Assembly (NCBI GenBank): GCA_019245575.1
Contig: JAFARE010000001.1
Coordinates: forward strand, 124,001-188,000
DNA: 64,000 bases
Source of the DNA: Candidatus Dormiibacterota bacterium
GTDB lineage: Bacteria > Chloroflexota > Dormibacteria > Aeolococcales > Aeolococcaceae
Direction of reading: 5' to 3'
A program made the translations under genes and the position numbers. Below the pieces are notes generated by a model. The model worked only from the letters and a program-made list of their open reading frames with translations. It did not search any database and was not told the origin of the DNA. This document shows, piece after piece, positions 27,259-27,380 of the stretch (position 1 is the stretch's first letter; every line of letters starts with the position of its first letter).

Positions 27259-27267
27259 ATCGTACCC

Positions 27268-27283
27268 ATCGACGCTCTTCGAT
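27268..27283. promoter_or_regulatory. candidate ArsR operator, copy 1
   Basis: ATCGA-CGCTCT-TCGAT. Confidence 0.7.
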
Positions 27284-27308
27284 AGAACTGTGCTACGCTG
27301 CCGGATCA

Positions 27309-27324
27309 ATCGACAAGCTTCGAT
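27309..27324. promoter_or_regulatory. candidate ArsR operator, copy 2
   Basis: ATCGA-CAAGCT-TCGAT, starts exactly 41 bp from copy 1, abutting the SD of the micro-ORF. Confidence 0.7.
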
Positions 27325-27338
27325 GGGAGGCTTCCGCC

Positions 27339-27380
27339 ATGGACTGCGACTGCCCCACCTGCGACTGCCCCTGCTGCTGA
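27339..27380 (+). CDS. 13-aa Cys-rich microprotein MDCDCPTCDCPCC (candidate micro-metallothionein)
   Basis: ATG GAC TGC GAC TGC CCC ACC TGC GAC TGC CCC TGC TGC TGA; SD GGGAGG at 27325-27330; divergent from arsR; absent from the supplied ORF track because of size. Confidence 0.6.
   Translation: MDCDCPTCDCPCC

Follow-up and report, generated by a model that had tools for sequence, protein, structure and literature searches.

A 13-codon cysteine-rich open reading frame divergent from arsR in a Dormibacteria genome: a probable metallothionein-like micropeptide gene

Can an open reading frame (ORF) of 13 codons, six of which specify cysteine, be a genuine gene when it stands alone opposite a metalloregulator gene, and if so what might its product do? 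The question is raised by a 64-kb stretch of DNA, hereafter the window, from a Dormibacteria soil bacterium whose genome of 2.6 Mb is 89.6% complete. The micro-ORF MDCDCPTCDCPCC (27339..27380, plus strand; DNA ATGGACTGCGACTGCCCCACCTGCGACTGCCCCTGCTGCTGA) is preceded by the Shine-Dalgarno (SD) sequence GGGAGG (27325..27330, plus strand), read directly from the sequence, which lies 8 nt upstream of the ATG. Two exact dyads are located in the divergent promoter region as putative operators that have no strand: operator 1, ATCGA-CGCTCT-TCGAT (ATCGACGCTCTTCGAT; 27268..27283), and operator 2, ATCGA-CAAGCT-TCGAT (ATCGACAAGCTTCGAT; 27309..27324). The dyads start 41 bp apart and the second abuts the SD. 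On the minus strand, arsR (26887..27252) encodes an ArsR/SmtB-family metalloregulator of 121 residues with GCC near the N-terminus and a CVCDF motif. The protein passes the ArsR-domain models NF033788 (78 bits, cut-off 55) and PF01022 (53 bits), and falls below the Rv2640c equivalog model NF041413 (70 bits versus a cut-off of 155). The ORF with its SD, the twin dyads and the cysteine motifs of ArsR had all been described in an initial annotation of this DNA and are borne out. Overall, the best reading of the micro-ORF is that it is a genuine gene, controlled by ArsR, whose product is a metallothionein-like micropeptide; a probability of approximately 0.72 is assigned to this reading. The window would then harbor a minimal orphan member of a micropeptide family that is made on metal(loid) stress.

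The case for a gene draws on the sequence itself, conservation, a codon signature and a chance simulation. The window ArsR was searched in 100 relatives, and the comparison took in the 24 loci whose ArsR proteins are its closest homologues (L004-L027, from two families and including the window). A micro-ORF was counted if it specified at least four Cys and lay between ArsR-type operators and the next gene. Fifteen of the 24 loci possess a Cys-rich micro-ORF, with peptides in relatives that include MSCDCPCGSCPCPCGC, MPCDCPCGTCPCPCGC, MACDCGCDCDGTCDCDCDC and MSCECGCECDATCDCC; MTCDCPCGQCCGCRSCGCGCACSAHAK is a further family peptide beside MDCDCPTCDCPCC and MPCDCPCGTCPCPCGC. When genome G002 (locus L101) is added, the micro-ORF is found in 16 genomes of eight genera, and a related locus in G024 belongs to the same family as the window genome. 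Five gap-free forms from ars loci, compared over 12 aligned codons, show 44 synonymous versus 4 nonsynonymous codon differences (pairwise counts that are not independent). The variable columns number 1, 1 and 8 at codon positions 1, 2 and 3, respectively, which is the pattern expected for the micro-ORF reading frame, and Asp, Pro and Gly are conserved alongside Cys. Across six MerR-associated forms none of the ten Cys is replaced, and the codons for nine of these switch only between TGC and TGT. The micro-ORF versions in the arsenic- and mercury-resistance operons of relatives thus appear to be under purifying selection. Conservation beside related arsR genes had been named beforehand as a test on which the initial annotation would stand or fall, and the annotation withstood it. 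A scan of the genome collection with the strict CDCPC pattern recovered convincing members in no records other than those labelled Chloroflexi or Dormibacteria, and forms with other starts could escape this pattern. The matches L044-L048, L050-L052, L057, L058, L061 and L062 were rejected as apparent chance matches inside coding genes, and tblastn with a 27-residue form against plasmids gave no match.

The genes that accompany the micro-ORF in relatives point to metal(loid) handling. The next gene is arsI in ten loci and arsM in four, and the micro-ORF stop touches or overlaps the next start (junctions TGACATG, TGAGATG, TTGA and ATGGCTGA). In these coupled relatives the micro-ORF precedes all other ORFs on the transcript, no separate downstream SD is visible in the loci read, and the stop-start contact looks like translational coupling. 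Partner genes were identified with curated models (ArsI, NF041414, 187 bits; ArsM, NF008823; MerA, TIGR02053); MIP-channel and ArsC-like genes follow in some loci, the latter assigned by reading the ORFs. At L101 the gene order is arsR-arsM-micro (VIPCDCPCGSCPCPCGC, with its own SD), followed by a hairpin of -26.7 kcal/mol. L101, L123/L059, L137 and L138 all have the micro-ORF in the last position of the operon, with its own SD and with hairpins that range from -21 to -27 kcal/mol. In another Chloroflexota class, forms of 26-40 residues lie behind a MerR-family regulator or merA (L055, L121-L126, L059), most of them with the core CDCPCGxCCGCxxC. A third group (family f38) comprises MRAFEVCDCPCGHCPCDCPGCGC and MRAASDGCDCPCGQCPCDCPGCCGG behind a MerR-like regulator, with hairpins of -24 and -27 kcal/mol after them. 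At L121 (1360-1500) the MerR-family gene ahead of the micro-ORF is apparently internally deleted when compared with L125, and the micro-ORF is intact. In G023 the copy without arsI retains eight Cys and the copy ahead of arsI is down to two, which fits expectation if the peptide can act in trans. The proposal of a minimal stand-alone system may fit the orphan in the window but fails as a general description, as relatives place the micro-ORF in arsI, arsM or MerR-regulated operons.

The promoter region is consistent with control by ArsR. In aligned relatives operator 1 covers the -35 box (ATTGACA...TCGAT) and operator 2 ends beside the SD, the operator start-to-start distance is 37-44 bp, and the operator-SD junction, for example CGATAGGAGG, is found again. 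Operator 1 of the window aligns with this -35/operator overlap. Scans of the window with a generic promoter consensus and for terminators found none; the -35 and -10 assignments come instead from alignment with 19 related promoters, in which TACGCT (27294..27299, plus strand), with TGC in front as in an extended -10, is the probable -10 element of the micro-ORF promoter. The exact ATCGA-N6-TCGAT dyad occurs at three sites in the window genome, two of these at the micro-ORF locus, and all sites with one mismatch fall within long open frames. Thus, arsR and the micro-ORF are the only visible targets. The convergent neighbor xth, for exodeoxyribonuclease III (27393..28184, minus strand; TIGR00633, 251 bits), lies outside the system with its 3' end 12 bp past the micro-ORF stop, and arsI and arsM are absent downstream in the window, so that the micro-ORF stands, as initially proposed, as the sole visible divergent target. 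An ArsR-family repressor gene with an operator-like pair at the promoter of a Cys-rich gene would correspond to an arrangement of the SmtB/SmtA type.

Certain observations weigh against this interpretation. Nine of the 24 ArsR loci are without a micro-ORF and have either arsI or arsM straight after the SD or a rearranged promoter. The -35 position in the window reads TCGACG with a 19-nt spacer compared to TTGACA and about 18 nt in relatives, and expression may be weak due to this degraded -35 and longer spacer. Operator 1 is a perfect palindrome in the window, gained in exchange for the degraded -35, a state that could reflect either tight, weak expression or the onset of decay. A single genome is available from the window genus, so selection on the window copy cannot be judged. 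Moreover, the ars forms of 13-21 residues are tied to the longer MerR forms only by the short CDCPCG motif and shared context.

The single genome and the degraded -35 lend some weight to a different account, in which arsI was lost in the window lineage, and the micro-ORF is a remnant that persists solely through operators needed for arsR autoregulation. Neither arsI nor acr3 was found in the window genome, an absence that is provisional genome-wide because the assembly is incomplete but certain locally. The longer promoter spacer and the status of the window peptide as the shortest family member also would suit a relic. However, the SD is intact, as are the start, the stop and the six Cys with their CxC/CC spacing, and L007 and L009 likewise keep an intact micro-ORF with no arsI behind it. 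Decay of a former arsI operon is considered unlikely.

Less likely again is a Cys-responsive leader peptide acting as an attenuator, in which ribosome progress over the Cys codons reports Cys supply and sets downstream translation. The apparent coupling of the micro-ORF to arsI or arsM made this idea worth testing, and Cys-rich regulatory short ORFs are known in mycobacteria (PMC9094748). The initial annotation had regarded the attenuator as weakened because no co-directional gene follows closely. This is correct for the window and a few other loci, but in 14 related loci the micro-ORF comes first with a co-directional gene directly behind it, so that different arguments were needed to reject the attenuator. 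L101 encodes the same peptide last in its operon, ahead of a terminator, and members in other classes lie behind MerR or MerA, several with hairpins immediately after. The window micro-ORF is an orphan with no gene after it, and thus is not upstream of any gene that it might regulate, as is also the case at L101, L137, L138 and L123. Asp, Pro and Gly are kept through synonymous change. Leader folding at the arsI/arsM-coupled loci is ordinary (z about -1.2 to +2, with L020 an exception at -1.9), and the RNA of the window leader showed no folding signal. In G003, arsI is located directly behind the SD without a micro-ORF. As a general explanation the leader role was rejected on the last-gene positions with terminators, the orphan copies and the conserved non-Cys residues, and the comparative genomics is a better fit to a thiolate-rich peptide that binds metal(loid) than to a leader. 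A chance ORF is very improbable: although TGC-rich repeats arise easily at 70% GC and the ORF has only 13 codons, ORFs of at most 20 codons with at least six Cys number one in the window and none in 40 windows of 64 kb simulated with matching dinucleotide transitions, reversed-pattern control searches returned almost no matches, and conservation and the codon signature contradict it.

Returning to a metallothionein-like micropeptide under ArsR control, the gene, its operator-like dyads, their conservation, amino acid selection in relatives and the operon partners are features supported by sequence. Beyond these, we infer ArsR binding, the inducer, translation, metal binding and a role in buffering or delivery. 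When metal(loid) is absent, ArsR would occupy both dyads and the divergent promoter would be blocked. As(III) or a soft metal at the CC/CxC thiols of ArsR would release the repressor, and the 13-residue peptide would be made. The CxC and CC thiolates of the peptide may then hold the metal(loid), either to buffer it or to hand it on, with chelation being the putative activity. In relatives, the chemistry or transport would fall to products of other genes in the operon (ArsI, ArsM, ArsC, a MIP channel or MerA), and coupling of the micro-ORF to arsI or arsM would balance the amounts of peptide and enzyme. The peptide could also buffer Zn or Cu, or act more generally as a thiol.

Further variation is evident around the regulator and in the surrounding DNA. 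In the ArsR at L113 (G019), GCS replaces GCC and CACDF replaces CVCDF, and the operators and micro-ORF are still kept. In genus g6 (L007, L009, L012, L013, L015) arsR is separated from the divergent promoter by a GNAT-like gene, which makes arsR the second gene of its own operon; several of these loci have another GNAT gene downstream. Another arsR in the window genome (G000:C22, L118) is accompanied by arsM, is divergent from a MIP channel and is without a micro-ORF, and a G002 locus of the same layout ends with a micro-ORF. At L020/L116 (G025) an unlike Cys-rich ORF of 35 residues, MTGAAAAAVWAASIARGVCFDCPGRCCDCPVCGCD, occupies the same slot before arsM and is not present in other members of the genus; an independent origin for this ORF is possible. 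Elsewhere in the window, a gene for a NicT nickel transporter (28190-29368, minus strand; NF052500, 530 bits) adjoins one for a divergent Fur-family regulator (29097-29864, plus strand; PF01475), a candidate nickel-uptake regulator pair.

In composition the micropeptides are of the metallothionein type, with 13-40 residues, mostly 25-50% Cys, and CxC and CC throughout; aromatic residues are absent from most members. Four members of 20-28 residues gave no match in Pfam or NCBIfam, with E values up to 5 allowed, the 13-residue window peptide being too short for this search. A PDB sequence search gave insignificant matches only, among them wheat Ec metallothionein at E 0.17. No description of the micropeptide family was found in the literature searched, where most subscription journals were missing. 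The 13-residue window peptide is probably one of the smallest metal-binding proteins to be genetically encoded. Repressor-controlled metallothioneins are already known (SmtB/SmtA; AzuR/NmtA, PMC8790569), and the micropeptide sequences match no curated family. Tentatively, the peptides might form a new, independently evolved micro-metallothionein class for metalloids and mercury. As thiol carriers they would pass As(III), methyl-As(III) or Hg(II) to an enzyme or channel whose gene is adjacent. If this is true, the 13-residue form in the window would count as one of the smallest metal-handling proteins that are genetically encoded. Genes of 13-40 codons are missed by annotation. The present family is conserved, has a clear codon signature and sits in well-studied kinds of resistance operon (arsR-arsI, arsR-arsM and merR-merA) of Chloroflexota and Dormibacteria, which are mostly uncultured. 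If As(III) or Hg(II) is bound by the peptides, a protein chelator would be added to operons that are credited to enzymes, pumps and low-molecular thiols, and the minimum size for a functional metallothionein could be tested directly. As the peptides can be synthesized, the claim is cheap to test.

Several known systems resemble the locus in part. SmtA and NmtA are cyanobacterial metallothioneins, BmtA-family proteins of about 50-60 residues. The SmtB/SmtA and AzuR/NmtA systems share with the window locus an ArsR/SmtB-family repressor, inverted-repeat operators at the promoter and a small Cys-rich product, AzuR being known with its 12-2-12 repeats (PMC8790569). In contrast, the family described here has 13-40 residues, no Pfam match, the operator ATCGA-N6-TCGAT, and an association with arsI/arsM or MerR/MerA genes. 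MymT and other bacterial metallothioneins similarly are small, Cys-dense and linked to metal stress, but the micropeptides are much shorter and matched neither Pfam nor NCBIfam. Rv2640c and cadI constitute a divergent pair of an arsR-type regulator and an arsI-type gene. Relatives of the window likewise have divergent arsR and arsI, as in ArsI/CadI operons with an Rv2640c-type ArsR, but place an extra Cys-rich micro-ORF between promoter and arsI, and the window ArsR lies well below the Rv2640c cut-off. Poly-Cys short ORFs in mycobacteria were reportedly described by Canestrari et al. in 2020 (cited in PMC9094748). These also are reported to be very short Cys-rich ORFs that head an operon near to the next start, are leaderless, and are upstream of genes that they regulate in response to cysteine. 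The micro-ORFs here instead are preceded by SDs, are found repeatedly at the end of operons or as orphans, and conserve both CxC spacing and non-Cys residues.
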